From: Hyphomicrobiaceae bacterium
GTDB lineage: Bacteria > Pseudomonadota > Alphaproteobacteria > Rhizobiales > Hyphomicrobiaceae
Assembly: GCA_022844275.1 (NCBI GenBank)
Contig: JALHMB010000004.1
Coordinates: 62,001-126,000 of the forward strand
DNA: 64,000 bases
Direction: 5' to 3'
Made by a program: the position numbers and the translations under genes. Below, in pieces: positions 29,082-37,687 of this stretch. The stretch's first letter is position 1, and each line of letters opens with the position of its first letter. Below the pieces are notes generated by a model, which saw only the letters and a program-made list of their open reading frames with translations, was not told the DNA's origin and ran no database searches.

Positions 29082-29114
29082 AATCACCCTCACTTCACCT
29101 GCAAGGAGGCCGAA

Positions 29115-30311
29115 ATGGCCAATCCAACATCCGATCCCGTCGTCATCGTCGCGGGCGCACGCACGCCCATGGGCAGCTTTCAGGGCAGCTTGCAGGCCAT
29201 GACGGCGCCGGAGCTCGGTGCGGTCGCGATCAAGTCGGCGCTCGGCCGCACGGGCGTCGCCGCCGAGGAAGTCGCCGAAGTGCTCATGGGCTGCGTGCTG
29301 CCCGCCGGCCAGGGCCAGGCACCGGCACGCCAGGCCGCGCGCTATGGCGGCCTTCCCGACAGCGTGCCGTGCACGACCGTCAACAAGATGTGCGGCTCGG
29401 GCATGAAGACGGTGATGATGGCCTACGAGGCGCTGCACGTGCGCCCCAAGGACGTGATCATTGCCGGTGGCCTCGAGAGCATGACCAACACGCCTTACAT
29501 CCTGCCGAAAATGCGCTCGGGCGCACGCCTCGGCCACACGCAGGCCTACGACCACATGTTCATCGATGGCCTCGAGGATGCCTATGACAAGGGCCGCCTC
29601 ATGGGCACCTACGCCGAGGATACGGCACAGCACTACCAGTTCACGCGCGAGCAGCAGGATGCGTTCGCGGTTGAAAGCCTGCGCCGCGCCAAAGCCGCCA
29701 ACGAGAATGGCTCCTTCGCCAATGAGATGGCCGCCGTCGTGGTGAAGTCGCGCAAGGGCACGACCGAGGTCACGCGCGACGAGCAGCCCTTCACGGCCGA
29801 TCCGGCCAAGATCCCGAGCCTCAAGCCCGCCTTCCGCGATGGCGGCACGGTGACGCCGGCCAACTCGAGCTCGATCTCGGATGGTGCCGCGGCCCTCGTG
29901 CTCATGCGCGAGAGCGAGGCCAGGCGCCGCAAGCTGCAGCCGCTCGCGCGCATCGTCGCGCAGGCGAGCCATGCCCAGGCGCCGGCGTGGTTCACCACGG
30001 CTCCGATCGGCGCCATGAAGAAGGTGCTGGAGGCGGCGGGCTGGAAAGCCGGGGATGTCGGCCTCTACGAAATCAACGAGGCCTTCGCTGTCGTCGCCAT
30101 GGCGGCCATGCGCGATCTCGACCTGCCGCACGACAAGGTCAACGTCCACGGCGGCGCCTGTGCGCTCGGCCATCCAGTCGGTGCATCCGGTGCGCGTATT
30201 ATCGTGACGCTCATCAATGCCATGGCGAAGCGCGGCGAGACCAAGGGCGTTGCCTCGCTCTGCATCGGCGGCGGCGAAGCGACGGCCGTCGCGATCGAGC
30301 GGATGAATTGA
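29115..30311 (+). CDS. Acetyl-CoA C-acyltransferase (thiolase, PimB/FadA-like)
   Basis: A 398-residue thiolase with the acyl-enzyme cysteine in NKMCGSGMKTVMMAYEAL (C about 92) and the C-terminal catalytic residues in NEAFAVVAM, GGACALGHPVGASGAR and SLCIGGGEATAVAIE. It performs the last thiolytic step of beta-oxidation, or the reverse condensation. Strong GGAGG precedes the ATG by 8 bases. With the ligase upstream and the dehydrogenase/FadB-like genes on the other strand it completes a beta-oxidation set. It is the second thiolase of the window and differs from the one at 6049 in its ends. Confidence 0.93.
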   Translation: MANPTSDPVVIVAGARTPMGSFQGSLQAMTAPELGAVAIKSALGRTGVAAEEVAEVLMGCVLPAGQGQAPARQAARYGGLPDSVPCTTVNKMCGSGMKTVMMAYEALHVRPKDVIIAGGLESMTNTPYILPKMRSGARLGHTQAYDHMFIDGLEDAYDKGRLMGTYAEDTAQHYQFTREQQDAFAVESLRRAKAANENGSFANEMAAVVVKSRKGTTEVTRDEQPFTADPAKIPSLKPAFRDGGTVTPANSSSISDGAAALVLMRESEARRRKLQPLARIVAQASHAQAPAWFTTAPIGAMKKVLEAAGWKAGDVGLYEINEAFAVVAMAAMRDLDLPHDKVNVHGGACALGHPVGASGARIIVTLINAMAKRGETKGVASLCIGGGEATAVAIERMN

Positions 30312-30337
30312 GCATTGACGCTCACGGAAGTGCGCCA

Positions 30338-31126
30338 GTGACGCGGCCCATGGTCGTGATCACCGGCGCCTCCGAGGGCATCGGCCGCGCGTTCGCGCAA
30401 CTCTATGCCGCGCGCGGCCGGGATCTCCTGCTGATTGCGCGCCGGCCCGAACCGCTGGCGCGGCTCTCCGATGAACTGATGACTGCGCATGCCGTCCGCG
30501 TCGAGACGCTGGCCCAGGACGTGACGGCGCCCGATGCACCAGCCGCCATGGATGCTGCGCTCGCCGCCGCGGGGGCCTACTGCGATCTCCTCGTCAACAA
30601 TGCCGGCATCGGCCTCTCCGGCGCCTTCCACGATCTCCCCATGAGCGAAATCGAGCGACTGCTCGCGATCAACACCGCGGCGCCGAGCCGTCTCATGCAT
30701 CACGTGCTGCCGGGGATGCGGGCGCGCGGACGCGGCGGCATCATCAATCTCGCCTCGCTCGGTGGATTTGCGCCGGGGCCCTACCAGGCTGCCTACTACG
30801 CGAGCCGCGCCTACGTGCTCTCGCTCTCGGAGGCTGTGGCAGCGGAGGTGGCAAGCGACGGCGTGCGCATCACCGCCGTCGCTCCCGGCCCTGTGCGCAC
30901 GCGCTTCCATGACAAGATGGATGCCGATCGCGATTTCTACCGCTGGCTCATCCCATCGCTCGCACCCGAGACGGTCGCTAGATGGGCAATCACGGCCCAT
31001 AATTTCGGCGTACGCGTCGTCGTGCCCGGTTTGCTGAACAACATTCTCGCACTATGTTTACGACTCATGCCGCACAGAATATCTGTGCTGATCCAGGGTT
31101 TCCTCTTCTACCCCCGCAATCGATGA
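30338..31126 (+). CDS. SDR family protein with Arg in place of the catalytic Lys
   Basis: About 262 residues. A short-chain dehydrogenase fold with TGASEGIGRAFAQLYAARG (dinucleotide binding), NNAGIGLSG, and the catalytic serine in INLASLGGFAPG. The Tyr-x-x-x-Lys motif reads YYASRAYVLS, so the lysine is arginine. The C-terminus has an extra hydrophobic stretch (VPGLLNNILALCLRLMP...LIQGFLF) suggesting membrane association. It resembles the DltE/YqjQ-like group of unknown substrate. A GTG at 30338 after CGGAAG is used as start; an ATG at 30350 is the alternative. It begins 26 bases after the thiolase stop. Confidence 0.83.
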   Translation: MTRPMVVITGASEGIGRAFAQLYAARGRDLLLIARRPEPLARLSDELMTAHAVRVETLAQDVTAPDAPAAMDAALAAAGAYCDLLVNNAGIGLSGAFHDLPMSEIERLLAINTAAPSRLMHHVLPGMRARGRGGIINLASLGGFAPGPYQAAYYASRAYVLSLSEAVAAEVASDGVRITAVAPGPVRTRFHDKMDADRDFYRWLIPSLAPETVARWAITAHNFGVRVVVPGLLNNILALCLRLMPHRISVLIQGFLFYPRNR

Positions 31127-31130
31127 CGCG

Positions 31131-31910
31131 ATGATGCTCGACGCCGAACCAACACGCGAAGCCCCCATCGATGGCCGGGGTCTGGACCTTTCTCTCGCCG
31201 CTCCTCTTGCGAAGAAGCCGGTGTTGATCGTCCTGCATATGGAGGGCGCCAAGTCCGGCCACGTTGGTCGCTGGTTCATCGAGAACGGCTATCCACTCGA
31301 CATCCGCCGTCCCTTTCTCGGCGATCCGCTGCCCGAGACACTCGCCCATCATACCGGCGCCGTGATTTTCGGCGGCTCGCAGAGCGCCAATGACAATGTC
31401 GATTACGTCAAGCGCGAGGTCGATTGGGTTGGCGTCGCGCTCAAGGAGCATAAGCCTTATCTCGGCATCTGCCTCGGCGCGCAGATGCTGGCTCGCCATC
31501 TCGGTTCGCGTGTCGAGATGTGCGGGCACGGCCGTGTCGAGATCGGTTATCACTCCGTGCAGCAGATTGATCAGGGTCGGGTGCTCGGCACACTCCCCGA
31601 GCGTGTCTATCAGTGGCATCGCGAGGGTTTCGAGATTCCGCGCGGCGCCGATCTGCTGGCAACAAGTGACGGTGCGTTCGAGAACCAAGCCTTCATCTAT
31701 GGCCCTGCGGCACTCGGCGTGCAGTTCCACCCTGAGATCATGCACACGCAGATAAATTGCTGGTCGGGCTCGAACCCCGTGCGCCTGCTCATGCGCGGTG
31801 CGCACGCGCGTCACGAGCAGCTCGCCGCGCATCTCGTGCACGCGCCGCGCGTACACACATGGCTCGATCAAATGCTGCGCCGTTGGGTCGAGGGCCGTCT
31901 CGCGACCTGA
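31131..31910 (+). CDS. Class I glutamine amidotransferase-like protein
   Basis: 259 residues with a GATase1 domain resembling the amidotransferase part of GMP synthase. The nucleophile cysteine is in LGICLGAQMLARHLG (C about 114) and the His/Glu pair is in GVQFHPEIM (about 203-207). VIFGGSQSANDN is the usual glycine-rich loop. Standalone members hydrolyse glutamine or gamma-glutamyl compounds; the acceptor is unknown. The first 30 residues are a poorly conserved extension. It starts 4 bases after the SDR stop, so the two are probably co-transcribed. A bidirectional terminator follows. Confidence 0.87.
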   Translation: MMLDAEPTREAPIDGRGLDLSLAAPLAKKPVLIVLHMEGAKSGHVGRWFIENGYPLDIRRPFLGDPLPETLAHHTGAVIFGGSQSANDNVDYVKREVDWVGVALKEHKPYLGICLGAQMLARHLGSRVEMCGHGRVEIGYHSVQQIDQGRVLGTLPERVYQWHREGFEIPRGADLLATSDGAFENQAFIYGPAALGVQFHPEIMHTQINCWSGSNPVRLLMRGAHARHEQLAAHLVHAPRVHTWLDQMLRRWVEGRLAT

Positions 31911-32020
31911 GCGCTGCAGCGGCATTTACCAAGATCGGCTTCTTCGCACATTCGTAACATCTGGCGTGGCAATATGCCTTCAGCGCCGGCTTTAGTGTTG
32001 CGTACTGGCGCCAATATTTC

Positions 32021-32051
32021 AGCGGAGCATCGCCTGGAGCGATGCTCCGCT
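32021..32051. terminator. Terminator between convergent amidotransferase and exosortase operon
   Basis: AGCGGAGCATCGC (32021-32033) and GCGATGCTCCGCT (32039-32051) form a perfect 13-base stem with a 5-base loop, followed on the plus strand by TTACTTTTG. Confidence 0.85.
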
Positions 32052-32067
32052 TTACTTTTGGCGGGCC

Positions 32068-32571
32068 TCAGCTCTTGGCGGGAGTATGGTGCCAGAAGGG
32101 CGCCCAGTCGAAATCCCGGGCGATCTCGCAGCCCTTGGGCGCGGCGATCATGAGCGCCGTCGTACTGGTCGTGAAGGATCCAAGCCCCACGGCCGAAAGC
32201 GCCTTCTGCTTCAGCCACTCGACGCGCAGATCAAGCCGGCTCGGCTCGCGCCACGTGCGCCCGAGGTAGGCGACGTGCCGCTCGCGCTCCATGCCGATAG
32301 CGGCATCGAAGAGCGGCGCTTCCTGAAGATTGAGACGCACTGGAAAGACATCGACGCGGCCACCGCATTGAGGAGCGTCGAATGCGACGGCCTTCAGGAG
32401 CGCGTGATCTTTAGCGGGCGTGATCCGTGCCGCGATCCCGCGCGAGGCGAGCAGCTCGACAACGGCAGGGCGGACGTCATATTCCAGCTGCCCGTGCGAG
32501 GCCTGGATCCTGACGGCCAGCGTGCCGAGCAGCAGTGCGGCGAAAGCAGCGCGAACGAGCCAGCTCTTCAT
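32068..32571 (-). CDS. Exosortase-linked membrane-anchored protein (EpsI-like position)
   Basis: 167 residues with an N-terminal hydrophobic anchor or signal (about 5-22, LVRAAFAALLLGTLAVRI) and a soluble extracytoplasmic part containing two cysteines (PQCGGRV and PKGCEIA). The ATG overlaps the exosortase TGA as ATGA, so translation is coupled. Exosortases are commonly followed by or fused to EpsI-type proteins of similar size and topology, and by position this would be the partner here, but I see no firm EpsI signature motif. The name is therefore by context. The end of the operon is the bidirectional hairpin at 32021-32051. Confidence 0.75.
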   Translation of the reverse strand: MKSWLVRAAFAALLLGTLAVRIQASHGQLEYDVRPAVVELLASRGIAARITPAKDHALLKAVAFDAPQCGGRVDVFPVRLNLQEAPLFDAAIGMERERHVAYLGRTWREPSRLDLRVEWLKQKALSAVGLGSFTTSTTALMIAAPKGCEIARDFDWAPFWHHTPAKS

Positions 32572-33458
32572 GGCGTGCGCCCCACGCGCAGCGCTCCGAA
32601 GAGGCTGATCGCAAGTACACTCAAGGTCGTTGCCCAGGCGAAAATCTGCGCGCCAGTGCTCTCGTGCCAGTACACGAAGCCATCGACGCTCAAGGACATG
32701 AGGTAGAGGCGGCTCGCGTTGAGCGCGATGACGACCGCGACGATGGCAAGACCGACCCAGATGTCCCGCGCGACCCAGCGAGGACGGGCGAGCTTTGTCA
32801 GCGTCACCCAGCAGAGCAGGCCGAGCGAGATGTTGTGGAAGGAGGAGCAGGGTCCGTAGACGATGATGGCGTGATCGGCTGTCGCGCCGACGACGGTCTC
32901 AGACCAGAGGATGCCCGTTTTGGTCGCGCTCAGCGCGGCGCCGACCAGCGCGGCATCGGCCTGAAGCAGGTAGTAGGCAAAGAACTCGAAGAGCCGCGGT
33001 CCCCAGAAGCCATTGAAGGCCAGTGCCAGCATCACGGCGCCGGCTGCCCTGAGAGCGATGTCATCGCGATCGCGCGCCATGAAGTAGAGTGCGCCGGCGG
33101 TCAAGGCAAGCCAATGCGCCGATCGGGCCGTCAGGACGCCAGACGCAATCACCGCGATTGCGAGGACGATGTCGCTCGAGCGGGCCGGCGACGTCCGCGT
33201 GCTGTCGGCAATCAGGCTGAAGATCGCGTACCAGGCCACATAGGCGAACACGCTCTTCGACGCGAGCTGGCTCTGCACCGCGCCGATGTAGGCGTCGAAC
33301 GAGCTGGCCGGCACCGCGAACAGCTGCTGGCACAACAGGGTGAAGGCCAGCCACAGGAAGACTTCGCGGCGGCCAAGCGTAGCCGCGCCGCGTGAACTAC
33401 CGACTACGTTGTCAACCGGGTGTGCGGATGCCACCGCCGTATGCGACTGGATCGCCAA
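32568..33458 (-). CDS. Exosortase/archaeosortase family transpeptidase
   Basis: A 296-residue protein with about eight membrane helices. The family triad is visible in the right order: Cys204 in YGPCSSFHNISLG, Arg250 in ALNASRLYLMSL and His265 in VYWHESTGA. Exosortases are unrelated to but analogous to sortase: they cut a C-terminal PEP-CTERM-like signal and pass the protein to an envelope acceptor. The start is a TTG at 33458 after GTGAGGA; a downstream GTG is possible. The upstream gene, 30 bases away, encodes a tiny protein with a sorting-signal C-terminus, and the downstream gene overlaps by 4 bases. Confidence 0.9.
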   Translation of the reverse strand: MAIQSHTAVASAHPVDNVVGSSRGAATLGRREVFLWLAFTLLCQQLFAVPASSFDAYIGAVQSQLASKSVFAYVAWYAIFSLIADSTRTSPARSSDIVLAIAVIASGVLTARSAHWLALTAGALYFMARDRDDIALRAAGAVMLALAFNGFWGPRLFEFFAYYLLQADAALVGAALSATKTGILWSETVVGATADHAIIVYGPCSSFHNISLGLLCWVTLTKLARPRWVARDIWVGLAIVAVVIALNASRLYLMSLSVDGFVYWHESTGAQIFAWATTLSVLAISLFGALRVGRTP

Positions 33459-33488
33459 TCCTCACACTCCGGGGTAGCGGTTGCGCGC

Positions 33489-33719
33489 TCAGCCTTTCCG
33501 AGACCGGCGCACGATAAGCAGCGCGCCAAGAGTGACGGCGGCTAAAGGCAGGCCGAATCCGATCAGCGGGCCGGGGGCGGGCACGGGGGTTGGCGCCGGC
33601 GCAGCGGGCGCGCAGGCGCTAGCCGGGAAGCAGAAGGCCGTAGCCGGATCGGCGAATGCCAGGAATGCTATCGCTGCCGCTCCTGCCGCTATGAGCAGGC
33701 CGCTCATTACAGTACGCAT
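33489..33719 (-). CDS. Small sorting-signal protein, probable exosortase substrate
   Basis: 76 residues. Residues 1-28 are a Sec signal peptide ending DPATA. Residues 29-48 are a short Cys/Pro/Ala stretch with C30 and C36. Residues 46-76 are a PEP-CTERM-like tripartite signal: the motif VPAPGPLIGFGLP, a hydrophobic helix LAAVTLGALLIV, and the basic tail RRSRKG. Proteins with a GxGLP motif before the helix are a known alphaproteobacterial variant. After both cleavages only about 20 residues would remain. GAGGGCG precedes the ATG. It is the first gene of the exosortase operon. Confidence 0.85.
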   Translation of the reverse strand: MRTVMSGLLIAAGAAAIAFLAFADPATAFCFPASACAPAAPAPTPVPAPGPLIGFGLPLAAVTLGALLIVRRSRKG

Positions 33720-33946
33720 CTACGAACGCCCTCATATACTAGACAACGCTACTATCCCCGATGCAGTTTTCTTGCCAGTCCGCAACGAGGTCAAATTGGC
33801 CAATGGTGGTATTTGCGGCAAAGTAAACCAATCGTTCTGGGAAACTGCGTCTTTTTGGAGCATGTGTTGCCCGAATGCCCGCGCAGGTGCGGACGAGCGT
33901 GTTATATTCCAAACTGATTTGCGGGGTATGCTGAGGGCTGTTCAGA

Positions 33947-34753
33947 ATGCTGTTGAAAGAGCTGACGTTTCAGCCGCTGCGGCAGCTTGCTGCGAGTGTG
34001 CTGGCGGTCGTCGCTATGGCAGGAGCGGCGCAAGCGCAGGATCCACGCGCGTGGACCGGCTTCTACGTCGGCGTTCACGGCGGATATCATTGGGGTGGCG
34101 GCGATTCGTCTCTGTCGCTTTTGCCCGATGCTGCGGCTTGGGCCAATCCTGGCTACCTGCCGTTCCAGCGAAGCTACGACAGTTCGCCTGATGGCGCCCT
34201 CGGTGGTGCCCAGCTCGGGTACAACTGGAGGTCGGGCGGCTTTGTCATCGGACTTGAGGCGGATCTCACTTATCTCAATGCGGATGGTCAGGCTTCGTAC
34301 ACCGCTTTTGTTTCCGATGGCGGTTCATCAGCGACGTATCGGGGGCAAAGCCGGCAAGAGATCGACTGGCTTGGGACACTGCGCGCTCGCGTCGGTATGA
34401 CACCCTTTGCGGACCCGCACTTCCTCATCTACTTCACCGGCGGTCTGGCCTACGGGCGGGTCGAGACGAGCCATTCGTTGGAGGCGATTGTCCCCACCGG
34501 CGCCAACTTCGGAGCCTCGGACACCAGTTGGGAAGTCGGCGGAACGGTTGGTGGCGGCCTTGAATGGATTTTCGGTGGTGGCTGGTCGCTGAAGGCGGAA
34601 TACCTCTACTACGACCTTGGTGATCGCGACGATCGCGGTCGAGCTATTAATATGTCCCCCACGCCACCGGCAGAGTTCGGCACTAGGATGAGCTACGAAC
34701 TCAATGGCCACATCGCGCGCGTGGGTATCAACTATCAACTGGGCGCCTACTAA
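33947..34753 (+). CDS. Outer membrane beta-barrel protein (Omp25/31-like)
   Basis: 268 residues. A signal peptide spans about 1-31 (AASVLAVVAMAGAAQAQ). The mature part is an eight-stranded type barrel with alternating strands typical of Rhizobiales surface porins: WTGFYVGVHGGYHWGG, LGGAQLGYNWRSGGFVIGLE, GTLRARVGM, FTGGLAYGRVE, GGTVGGGLEWIFGGGWSLKA and the final RVGINYQLGAY. No OmpA peptidoglycan domain is present. The role is likely structural in the outer membrane. The 227-base upstream region is AT-rich and contains TATATT at 33903-33908 as a possible -10 box. Confidence 0.9.
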   Translation: MLLKELTFQPLRQLAASVLAVVAMAGAAQAQDPRAWTGFYVGVHGGYHWGGGDSSLSLLPDAAAWANPGYLPFQRSYDSSPDGALGGAQLGYNWRSGGFVIGLEADLTYLNADGQASYTAFVSDGGSSATYRGQSRQEIDWLGTLRARVGMTPFADPHFLIYFTGGLAYGRVETSHSLEAIVPTGANFGASDTSWEVGGTVGGGLEWIFGGGWSLKAEYLYYDLGDRDDRGRAINMSPTPPAEFGTRMSYELNGHIARVGINYQLGAY

Positions 34754-34830
34754 GCGCCTCTGAAATTTGACGCCCCCGCCGCACCGACCTATGAACCCGC
34801 AGGGTGCGTGCAGCGCAGCGAGGCGGGGTC

Positions 34831-36276
34831 ATGCTGCTTTCGGAACTCGTGCCGGACGAAGTGCTGCTGCCGGCGGCTCCTCCAGCCATCGACATTCGGG
34901 GTCTGACCGCTGACAGCCGGGCGGTGCAGCCCGGCTTCCTGTTCGCTGCACTCGCCGGCAGCCGCACGGATGGCGCGCGCTTTGTTGCCGACGCGCTGGC
35001 CAAGGGCGCGGCCGCGATCCTCGCCGCGGAAGCCGTCACAATCGACGCACCGGTGCATGTCCCGGTCCTGCGCGCCCGCGAGCCGCGCCGCGCGCTCGCG
35101 CTCATGGCGGCGCGTTTTCATGCTCGGCAGCCCGCACACATGCTGGCAGTTACCGGAACGAGCGGAAAAACCTCCGTCGCCGATTTCACGCGCCAGATAC
35201 TGACGCTGCTCGGTCAGCAGGCGGCCTCGGTCGGCACGATCGGTCTCGTGCGCCCGGACGGTGCGGTCTATGGTTCACTGACGACGCCCGATCCCATTTC
35301 GCTTCATGCGACCCTCGACGAACTCGCCGGCGACGGCATCACGCACGTCGCCTTCGAGGCTTCATCGCACGGCCTCGACCAGCATCGCCTGGATGGCGTG
35401 CGCATCACGGCCGCGGCCTACACGAACCTCGGGCGCGATCATCTCGACTATCATTCGACGCTCGATGCCTACCTGAAAGCCAAGCTGCGCCTCTTCACGG
35501 AGCTACTGCCACGGGAAGGTACGGCGGTCGTGAACGCGGGTGGTGCCGAGGCCGTACGCGTCATCGACGCAGTCCGTCGGCGCAGCATTAACCTCATCAC
35601 CACGGGCTTCGGGGGCGAGACGCTGCAACTTGCAGAGATCACGCGCGACGGCTTCGCGCAGCGCGTCGTGGTCCACGCCGAGGGCCGCGACTTCGCCCTG
35701 CGCTTTCCGCTTCTCGGCACCTATCAGGTCGAGAATGCGCTTCTCGCCGCGGGCCTCGCCATGGCGAGTGGCGAGCCGACCGAAGCGGTGCTCGGGACAC
35801 TTGAGAAGCTTACGGGTGTCGCGGGCCGCCTCGAGATCGTCGCCGAGCACAAGAGCGGCCTTGCCGTCGTCGACTATGCCCATAAACCCGAGGCACTCGC
35901 TGCGGCGCTCGATGCGCTGCGACCGTTTGCGACGGGCAAGCTCGTCTGCATTGTCGGCTGCGGTGGTGATCGCGATCGCGGCAAGCGGCCGATCATGGGT
36001 CGTATCGCCGTCGATCGCGCCGACGTCGTGATCATCACCGACGACAATCCGAGAAGCGAGGACCCGGCCACCATTCGCGGCGAGATGCTACGCGGAGCAA
36101 TCGGTGCGCGCGAGATCGGCGATCGGGCTGAGGCCATTGCCGCCGGCATGGACCTGCTCGGCGAGGGCGATGTGCTCCTGGTCGCCGGCAAAGGTCACGA
36201 GAACGGCCAGATCGTCGGGAATGTCACGCTGCCCTTCAGTGATCATGACGAGATCAGGAAGCACCTCGATGGCTGA
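34831..36276 (+). CDS. murE: UDP-N-acetylmuramoyl-L-alanyl-D-glutamate--2,6-diaminopimelate ligase
   Basis: A 481-residue Mur ligase adding the third residue of the peptidoglycan stem peptide. ATP-binding loop VTGTSGKTSVADFTRQ (about residue 108), LGRDHLDYHSTLDAYLKAK with the carbamylated-lysine region, VDYAHKPEALAAAL, and DDNPRSEDP. The DNPR motif is diagnostic for meso-diaminopimelate rather than lysine. The start at 34831 has GAGGCGGGG upstream; a GTG at 34804 is an alternative. murF overlaps its last 8 bases. Only these two genes of the division and cell wall cluster are here; the next genes expected (mraY, murD) do not follow. Confidence 0.96.
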   Translation: MLLSELVPDEVLLPAAPPAIDIRGLTADSRAVQPGFLFAALAGSRTDGARFVADALAKGAAAILAAEAVTIDAPVHVPVLRAREPRRALALMAARFHARQPAHMLAVTGTSGKTSVADFTRQILTLLGQQAASVGTIGLVRPDGAVYGSLTTPDPISLHATLDELAGDGITHVAFEASSHGLDQHRLDGVRITAAAYTNLGRDHLDYHSTLDAYLKAKLRLFTELLPREGTAVVNAGGAEAVRVIDAVRRRSINLITTGFGGETLQLAEITRDGFAQRVVVHAEGRDFALRFPLLGTYQVENALLAAGLAMASGEPTEAVLGTLEKLTGVAGRLEIVAEHKSGLAVVDYAHKPEALAAALDALRPFATGKLVCIVGCGGDRDRGKRPIMGRIAVDRADVVIITDDNPRSEDPATIRGEMLRGAIGAREIGDRAEAIAAGMDLLGEGDVLLVAGKGHENGQIVGNVTLPFSDHDEIRKHLDG

Positions 36277-37687
36277 CGGCACGCCGCTTTGGACCTGGGA
36301 TGCGCTCGTCGCGGCGGCAGAGGGTGTGGCCGAAGGTACTCCGGCCGGCCCCATCACGGGCTTCTCGATCGACACGCGCTCGCTGGCGCCCGGCGAGGTC
36401 TTCGTCGCGCTGACTGATCAGCGCGATGGGCACGACTTTGTCGATGCCGCGTTCAAAGCCGGTGCTGCGGCGGCGCTCGTGCGGCGTGATTTCGTTGCAC
36501 CGGAAGGCGCCGGACCGCTCATCCGCGTCGATGATCCGCTTTCTGCGCTGGGCCGCATCGCAATAGCCGCGCGCGCCCGGCTAAGGCCTGAGGCACGCGT
36601 CGTTGCCGTGACCGGCAGTGCCGGCAAGACCGGCACGAAGGAAATGCTGCGCGCTTGTCTCGCGACGGCCGGCAAAGTCCATGCGCCGGAGAAGTCGTTC
36701 AACAATCACTGGGGTGTGCCGCTGACGCTCGCGCGGATGCCCGCGGATGTCGATTTCGCTGTGATCGAGATCGGTATGAACCACGCCGGCGAGATCAGCC
36801 CGCTCACCCGCATGGCGGGCCCGCACATCGCCGTCGTCACGAACGTGCTGCCCGTTCATGTCGGCAACTTTCCTGACGGCGAGCAAGGTGTCGCGAAGGC
36901 CAAAGCCGAGATCTTCGAGGGCTTGAAGCCGGGCGGCCTCGCCGTGCTGCCGCGGGACAGCCGGCACTATAGCTTGCTTGATCGCGCCGTGGCAGCGCGG
37001 GGCGCGCGCATTGTGACCTTCGGCACGACGACGGATGCCTACGTCGGCGCGCGCGAGATCAAGCTCGACGATACCGGCAGCGATATCGTTGCCGAGATCG
37101 CGGGGCAGGCTCTGAGCTATCGTCTGGGAACGGTGGGCGTGCACATCGCGGTCAACTCGCTGGCCGTGATCGCGACGCTCAATGCACTGCATCTTCCGTT
37201 GAAGGCGGCGACGGTGCCGCTCGCGGGCATCACGCCGCCCGTCGGTCGTGGCGCGCGCACGCTGCTCAAAGCGGCTGAAGGCGCGATCCTGCTGATCGAC
37301 GAGAGCTACAACGCCAATCCCGCCTCCATGCGCGCTGCCATCTCCGTCCTTGGTGCCGTCGCGCGCGCGAATTATCCGCGCCGCGTCGCAGTGCTCGGTG
37401 ACATGCTCGAACTCGGCGAGGGGTCGGAGGGCTACCACCTCGGGCTTGCGGAGCCGCTGTCGTTGGCCGAGGCCGATGTGGTCTTTGCGTGTGGTCCGCA
37501 CATGCAAAAGCTTTTCGAGACGCTGCCCCTCGGATGCCGCGGTGCCTGGGCACCGGATTCTACGGCTCTTATTCCGCACGTCGTCGACGCACTGCGGGCC
37601 GGCGATGCGGTGATGGTGAAGGGTTCGCTCGGCAGCCGCATGGCGCCTATTGTCGCCGCGATCAAGGCGAAGTTTGCTGCTGGATAG
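36269..37687 (+). CDS. murF: UDP-N-acetylmuramoyl-tripeptide--D-alanyl-D-alanine ligase
   Basis: A 472-residue Mur ligase that adds D-Ala-D-Ala to the stem peptide. The ATP loop is VTGSAGKTGTKEMLRA (about residue 113); EKSFNNHWGVPLTL and VIEIGMNHAGEI are typical MurF motifs, followed by IDESYNANPASMRAAI and GDMLELG. It starts within murE (8-base overlap), so the pair is translationally coupled. A palindromic block, not mraY, follows directly after its stop, which suggests that the wall cluster has been split at this point in this genome. Confidence 0.96.
   Translation: MADGTPLWTWDALVAAAEGVAEGTPAGPITGFSIDTRSLAPGEVFVALTDQRDGHDFVDAAFKAGAAAALVRRDFVAPEGAGPLIRVDDPLSALGRIAIAARARLRPEARVVAVTGSAGKTGTKEMLRACLATAGKVHAPEKSFNNHWGVPLTLARMPADVDFAVIEIGMNHAGEISPLTRMAGPHIAVVTNVLPVHVGNFPDGEQGVAKAKAEIFEGLKPGGLAVLPRDSRHYSLLDRAVAARGARIVTFGTTTDAYVGAREIKLDDTGSDIVAEIAGQALSYRLGTVGVHIAVNSLAVIATLNALHLPLKAATVPLAGITPPVGRGARTLLKAAEGAILLIDESYNANPASMRAAISVLGAVARANYPRRVAVLGDMLELGEGSEGYHLGLAEPLSLAEADVVFACGPHMQKLFETLPLGCRGAWAPDSTALIPHVVDALRAGDAVMVKGSLGSRMAPIVAAIKAKFAAG

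Follow-up and report, generated by a model that had tools for sequence, protein, structure and literature searches.

To our knowledge a product or acceptor has been established for few exosortases, in part because each usually serves many targets. The VPEID-CTERM/XrtE system (TIGR04162) of the Alphaproteobacteria, reportedly described by Haft in 2012, is said to be a dedicated single-target exosortase. XrtE carries a fused CAAX protease, and archaeosortase A is homologous with the exosortases, all belonging to one superfamily. EpsH of the PEP-CTERM system is an enzyme with multiple transmembrane segments and conserved Cys, Arg and His residues that goes with a tripartite C-terminal signal, and in Methylobacillus the gene directly downstream of that for EpsH encodes EpsI, of unknown function (PMC1569441). 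Work on archaeosortase A describes an active-site Cys, a proposed lipid acceptor and lipid-synthesis genes in synteny with the Methanosarcina artA gene (PMC7157517), and rhombosortase/GlyGly-CTERM systems pair one enzyme with one target, often encoded side by side, and have been named 'dedicated' (PMC3237569).

Here we describe an exosortase locus within a 64,000-nucleotide stretch of DNA from a Hyphomicrobiaceae bacterium (the whole of which we call the window), where three minus-strand genes (ORF coordinates) encode a 76-residue substrate precursor (33489-33719), a 296-residue exosortase (32568-33458) and a 167-residue partner that we call P3 (32068-32571). The initial annotation had proposed a tight three-gene unit lacking adjoining polysaccharide genes, and both points were borne out: a gap of 30 bases (33459-33488) separates the substrate and exosortase genes, the exosortase and P3 genes overlap by the 4 bases ATGA (32568-32571), with start codons ATG, TTG and ATG for substrate, exosortase and P3 respectively, and neither ORFs nor domain matches revealed a polysaccharide gene beside the unit. 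The same substrate-exosortase-P3 order is found in three relatives (L016, L017 and L018) whose exosortases share 40-45% identity with that of the window, which argues that the arrangement is not due to chance.

As read here, the unit resembles XrtE/VPEID-CTERM in being a dedicated single-target exosortase of the Alphaproteobacteria; however, it has neither a TIGR04162 match nor a fused CAAX protease, its signal is of the P-x-P and not the VPEID kind, and P3 is encoded by a separate gene. In fact TIGR04162 gave no match in the window's own genome at E<=0.001, did not appear among the matches of the window protein at E<=10, and exceeded its cut-off in 2 of 150 order genomes. For EpsH-EpsI (XrtA), the likeness extends to a multi-TM enzyme, the Cys/Arg/His set, a tripartite signal and a downstream gene, but PEP-CTERM genomes have many targets and place the enzyme in EPS loci, whereas here we observe one small target, and P3 is unrelated to EpsI by profile comparison (E 0.57). 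For archaeosortase A, the association of artA with lipid-synthesis genes recalls the fatty-acid hydroxylase gene found with the L019/L062/L072 clade of our set, although the substrate described there is the large S-layer glycoprotein, which becomes lipid anchored, and for the window system such attachment is hypothetical. The rhombosortases share the one enzyme/one target pairing but are rhomboid proteases and not exosortases. Dedicated sorting is therefore an already named concept.

Because curated models barely see the window proteins, superfamily membership rests on relatives. The window exosortase reached no curated cut-off, scoring 9.1 bits against TIGR04178 (cut-off 23) and giving no match to PF09721, but two relatives do exceed them, L016 with PF09721 (27.8 vs 25.7 bits) and L014 with TIGR04178 (23.6 vs 23 bits). 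The family HMMs consequently leave 32568-33458 itself below their cut-offs while supporting these two relatives. The residues C204, R250 and H265 that the initial annotation had singled out, together with N247, are invariant in all 15 aligned sequences, the window's included (C204 codon at 32847-32849). Additional support comes from a 15-row exosortase profile, which aligned with 8 EpsH sequences in hhalign (E 4.8e-9, probability 96.9); a narrow 4-row profile did so weakly (E 0.013). The structure model of the exosortase is mostly helical (pLDDT 82.2), and Foldseek returned no match to solved structures at E<=0.001.

P3 has no match in Pfam or NCBIfam, and these collections gave nothing useful for substrate and P3 alike. 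Its structure model shows an N-terminal helix followed by a confident alpha/beta domain (pLDDT 83.0), with no Foldseek match among solved structures at E<=0.001, and the predicted helix 3-25 is taken as a membrane anchor. In 30 of 37 loci compared the exosortase stop codon and the start of the following frame, which encodes 153-203 aa, have exactly 4 bases in common. When these 30 overlapping partners were aligned, only two columns were identical in all of them (30/30), namely C69 and C148 of P3. We suggest that these cysteines probably form a disulfide and that P3 probably assists in binding of substrate or acceptor. The proposal that the third protein stands in the place of EpsI (PF11984) found no support, as P3 is not detectably EpsI by family match or when 13 P3 and 8 EpsI sequences were compared by hhalign.

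The substrate precursor comprises a signal peptide, a Pro-rich stub, the motif P-x-P-L-I-G-F-G-L-P, a helix and a basic tail, with relatives in L016-L018. Its C-terminal sorting signal covers residues 47-76 (33492-33581, minus strand), and the predicted mature stub would span residues 29-51 (33567-33635, minus strand) if the signal peptide is cut after ATA, placed by eye with the -3/-1 rule. In a signal-model run over the 37 loci the window substrate scored E 2e-14, its own sequence being in the training set. We considered GLP as the conserved signal core and rejected it, since across 14 aligned substrates the invariant features are the start Met, P-x-P and two glycines; the initial reading of a sorting-signal protein stands, but its GxGLP core gives way to P-x-P. 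By eye with the -3/-1 rule, the stretch between the signal-peptide cut and the last residue of P-x-P has about 23 (after ATA) or 28 (after AFA) residues in the window, 11-12 in L016-L018 and 7-12 in L019, L062 and L072, and these short segments are largely proline-rich. Processed substrates of the window clade and of the L019/L062/L072 clade would accordingly be predicted to have about 7-28 residues, too short for folded surface proteins. In clade B, described below, most substrates carry a Gly-rich part that runs to a few tens of residues, with that of L021 having about 10.

The 37 loci comprise that of the window (L028), L014-L027, L051-L068, L072 and L153-L155, with three genomes contributing two loci each. 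The window exosortase has a patchy distribution, being matched at E<=0.01 in 13 of 103 family genomes, its own included, and absent at that threshold from the remaining four of its genus. A 15-row profile recovered 20 of 397 order genomes (E<=1e-4) and a nearest-group profile 5 of 398 phylum genomes (E<=1e-10), both counts including the window's own genome; the named relatives are MAGs labelled as uncultured Rhizobiales, Proteobacteria bacterium, Hyphomicrobium and uncultured Salinisphaerales. We scanned 10,662 stop-to-stop frames from the 37 loci with three signal-type models and found a same-strand signal near the exosortase in 23 of 37, the window's included; that of L061 was missed by the models and added by eye. 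Signals were found in L051, L067, L154 and L155 even though these were outside training, and as L067 and the trained L068 are congeners they amount to three independent untrained loci, the signal of L155 being weak (E 0.005 over 37 loci). No adjacent signal was recognised in 13 of 37 loci (14/37 by models alone), among them L153, whose exosortase nevertheless scores E 7.7e-48 against the near-group profile A7, and both loci on Rhizobium plasmids. In the annotated locus of this pair (L014, Rhizobium sp. WL3) the exosortase and P3-position genes lie among glycosyltransferases in a polysaccharide cluster. On both plasmids (L014:7857-9222 and L015:7746-9132) the exosortase and P3-position genes are 'hypothetical' or unannotated. 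At L154:5189-5593 (G738) a second signal, of the VPGPLEGVGLP type, lies near the exosortase on the other strand and suggests two targets there. L064-L066 represent a deep exosortase branch adjoining a 602-aa gene and an opposite-strand protein of 215-236 aa that carries IPGPVPG close to the C-terminus.

A maximum-likelihood tree of 34 exosortases (L153-L155 left out; some rows long) had 12 of 31 inner branches well supported. The window groups with L016, L017 and L018 (support 98/95), all of them in the substrate-exosortase-P3 order, and a second clade unites L019, L062 and L072 (99/98), which have very short substrates and, in 3/3 cases, a PF04116 fatty-acid hydroxylase gene downstream of the unit; these two clades are joined weakly (84/67). 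Clade B contains ten loci (100/100) in the order exosortase-P3-substrate. Outside the named clades the substrate comes first in L053, L061, L068, L154 and L155 and last in L060; it is last in clade B and L062 as well. The neighbourhood comparison in this way upholds a pattern of one exosortase with an adjacent substrate in both type-A and type-B units, but gene order is kept within clades only. Tandem substrates occur in L062 (four) and L026 (two). In L062:9213-10128 (G356) the four precursors come after a single exosortase-P3 pair and before the fatty-acid hydroxylase gene, and measure 54-62 residues provided that the first uses a later start codon.

We found that the sequences flanking the locus (29102-32069 and 34766-36999, with limits that vary by genome) can be aligned in three congeners (G025, G026 and G027), where no more than 100, 42 and 35 bases, respectively, separate them, so that about 2.7 kb present here are absent there; in G024 each flank matches a separate contig. 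This cassette (32060-34765) contains the trio and a divergent plus-strand OMP_b-brl gene (33947-34753, 268 aa) with a PF13505 score of 58.8 bits (cut-off 28.7). The trio proposed as self-contained in 1.65 kb is real, but that extent is too small because the cassette includes the beta-barrel gene as well. The substrate and OMP genes, which diverge, are separated by 227 bases (33720-33946), presumed to be the promoter region for both, in which no sigma-70-like site was found. A 13-pair terminator-like hairpin (32021-32051) sits at the cassette edge, and G026, which lacks the cassette, has a similar inverted repeat at the corresponding position. OMP homologues are divergent at the equivalent place in L016 and L018, and the one adjoining the unit ranks first among 4 homologues in G007 and is the sole homologue in G082. 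In L017 (G052), also of the window clade, the unit lacks the OMP (0 of 6 genome homologues adjoin it), and in L023 an OMP of the same Pfam family lies 24 bases upstream of the exosortase on the same strand. Downstream of the OMP-less unit of L017 there is a YadA-head/anchor adhesin-like gene (L017:6180-7475). Judging from linkage, the divergent beta-barrel is likely the outer-membrane partner of the product in the window clade. Separately, at L118:459-1307 (G032) an OMP_b-brl gene adjoins an exosortase E (TIGR04162) gene, and barrels may therefore accompany other dedicated exosortases.

How many targets the enzyme serves bears directly on whether this is an ordinary multi-target exosortase, with other substrates carrying diverged signals and its neighbour merely the most recognisable, a reading that we regard as unlikely. 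In its own genome (6.08 Mb; matches listed at E<=10) signal model A5 gave 4 matches, the adjacent substrate at E 1.4e-13 and then 1.22, 3.57 and 4.53, and model A8 gave none at E<=0.1; whole-genome scans were made with these two models, the third, model T, being applied to the 37 loci. No second exosortase was found in this genome by protein query (E<=1) or the 15-row profile, and a PF09721 search also came back empty, which excludes little since the same model misses the window exosortase. TIGR02595 (PEP-CTERM) gave three weak matches at E<=5, the best at E 0.117 and 16.8 bits being formally above the 16-bit cut-off but with a stop inside, and 11 of 14 control genomes match too, 2 of them over the cut-off. 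In G007, G052, G082, G227 and G446 the adjacent signal, part of the training set by construction, is likewise the only strong A5 match (next best E 0.0205, in G052), and the congeners G025 and G026, which lack the exosortase, show no strong A5 signal (best E 0.037 and 0.353; G024 and G027 lay outside the scan). With A8, every one of the 11 strong matches (E<=2.2e-12) that the 10 genomes of clade B yielded lies next to the exosortase, including one in G126, which was held out of training; the next-best match was 9.5e-4 in G140. For the multi-target reading speaks G324, which has two exosortases and six A5 matches at E<=8.2e-4, five of them beyond the adjacent one and outside the training set, and this also means that the model can see unlinked signals. 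Moreover, the model spans 31 positions and was trained on adjacent substrates, so that diverged targets like those of L155, with its weak untrained match, or L061, which the models missed, could escape genome scans; in G091 A5 misses the genome's own substrate, which is of another type, and the genomes compared include incomplete drafts (G087 78%, G030 85%). Within the sensitivity of the models there is one convincing target in the window's own genome, encoded first in the operon as the initial annotation had noted, and combined with the adjacent pattern seen across genera this supports its suggestion of a dedicated, single-target system.

Two further readings concern what the small protein does. 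It might be a linker or cap joined to an exopolysaccharide acceptor, in line with L014 lying among glycosyltransferase genes and with the tie between EpsH-type exosortases and EPS made in PMC1569441, but the window unit has no adjoining polysaccharide gene, L014 has no recognised adjacent small substrate, and in the neighbouring clade it is a fatty-acid hydroxylase gene that accompanies the unit; we think such a polysaccharide-linked peptide improbable. Alternatively the protein could remain uncut as a two-helix membrane subunit or regulator of an exosortase-P3 complex. Its predicted tiny external stub (roughly 7-28 residues, judged by eye, for the window clade and that of L019/L062/L072), unconserved in sequence beyond its prolines, and the 1:1 gene pairing fit this, although the motif-helix-basic tail plan of sorting signals is kept, most clade-B substrates have longer Gly-rich bodies, and tandem copies occur in L062 and L026, and we give the subunit reading little credence.

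We favor the view that the unit is a dedicated exosortase module of an unnamed subfamily with one small peptide target, which on balance we consider likely. Under this reading the 76-aa precursor would be exported and its signal peptide removed, while the helix and basic tail would hold it in the inner membrane. The exosortase, through C204, R250 and H265, would then cut at P-x-P-L-I-G, presumably after P-x-P, on the periplasmic side and transfer the short Pro-rich peptide, which in this case would have about 23-28 residues, from a C204 thioester to an acceptor in the envelope, a chemistry argued by analogy with archaeosortase A, with P3 probably acting as a membrane-anchored periplasmic protein that assists substrate or acceptor binding. 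In the L019/L062/L072 clade the linkage to a fatty-acid hydroxylase leans towards a lipid acceptor, by the same kind of analogy. More broadly, we can only speculate that an entire unnamed exosortase branch with its two-cysteine partner makes small envelope-bound peptides and does not anchor proteins, a Pro- or Gly-rich peptide being joined to lipid or another acceptor, with clade-specific partners (barrel, hydroxylase); this remains a tentative idea that we would not bet on.

With related cassettes present in other bacteria, this looks like a real, undescribed route to small envelope peptides. The enzyme, its apparent sole target and the partner are together encoded in less than 2 kb, which means that three genes could suffice to reconstitute the reaction in a laboratory strain, and the conserved two-cysteine partner offers a way into the role of the gene that follows exosortases. 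With substrates this small, one may ask if the job of some exosortases is to produce peptides instead of anchoring proteins, and if this is true, their products would form a new class of peptide conjugates of ribosomal origin.
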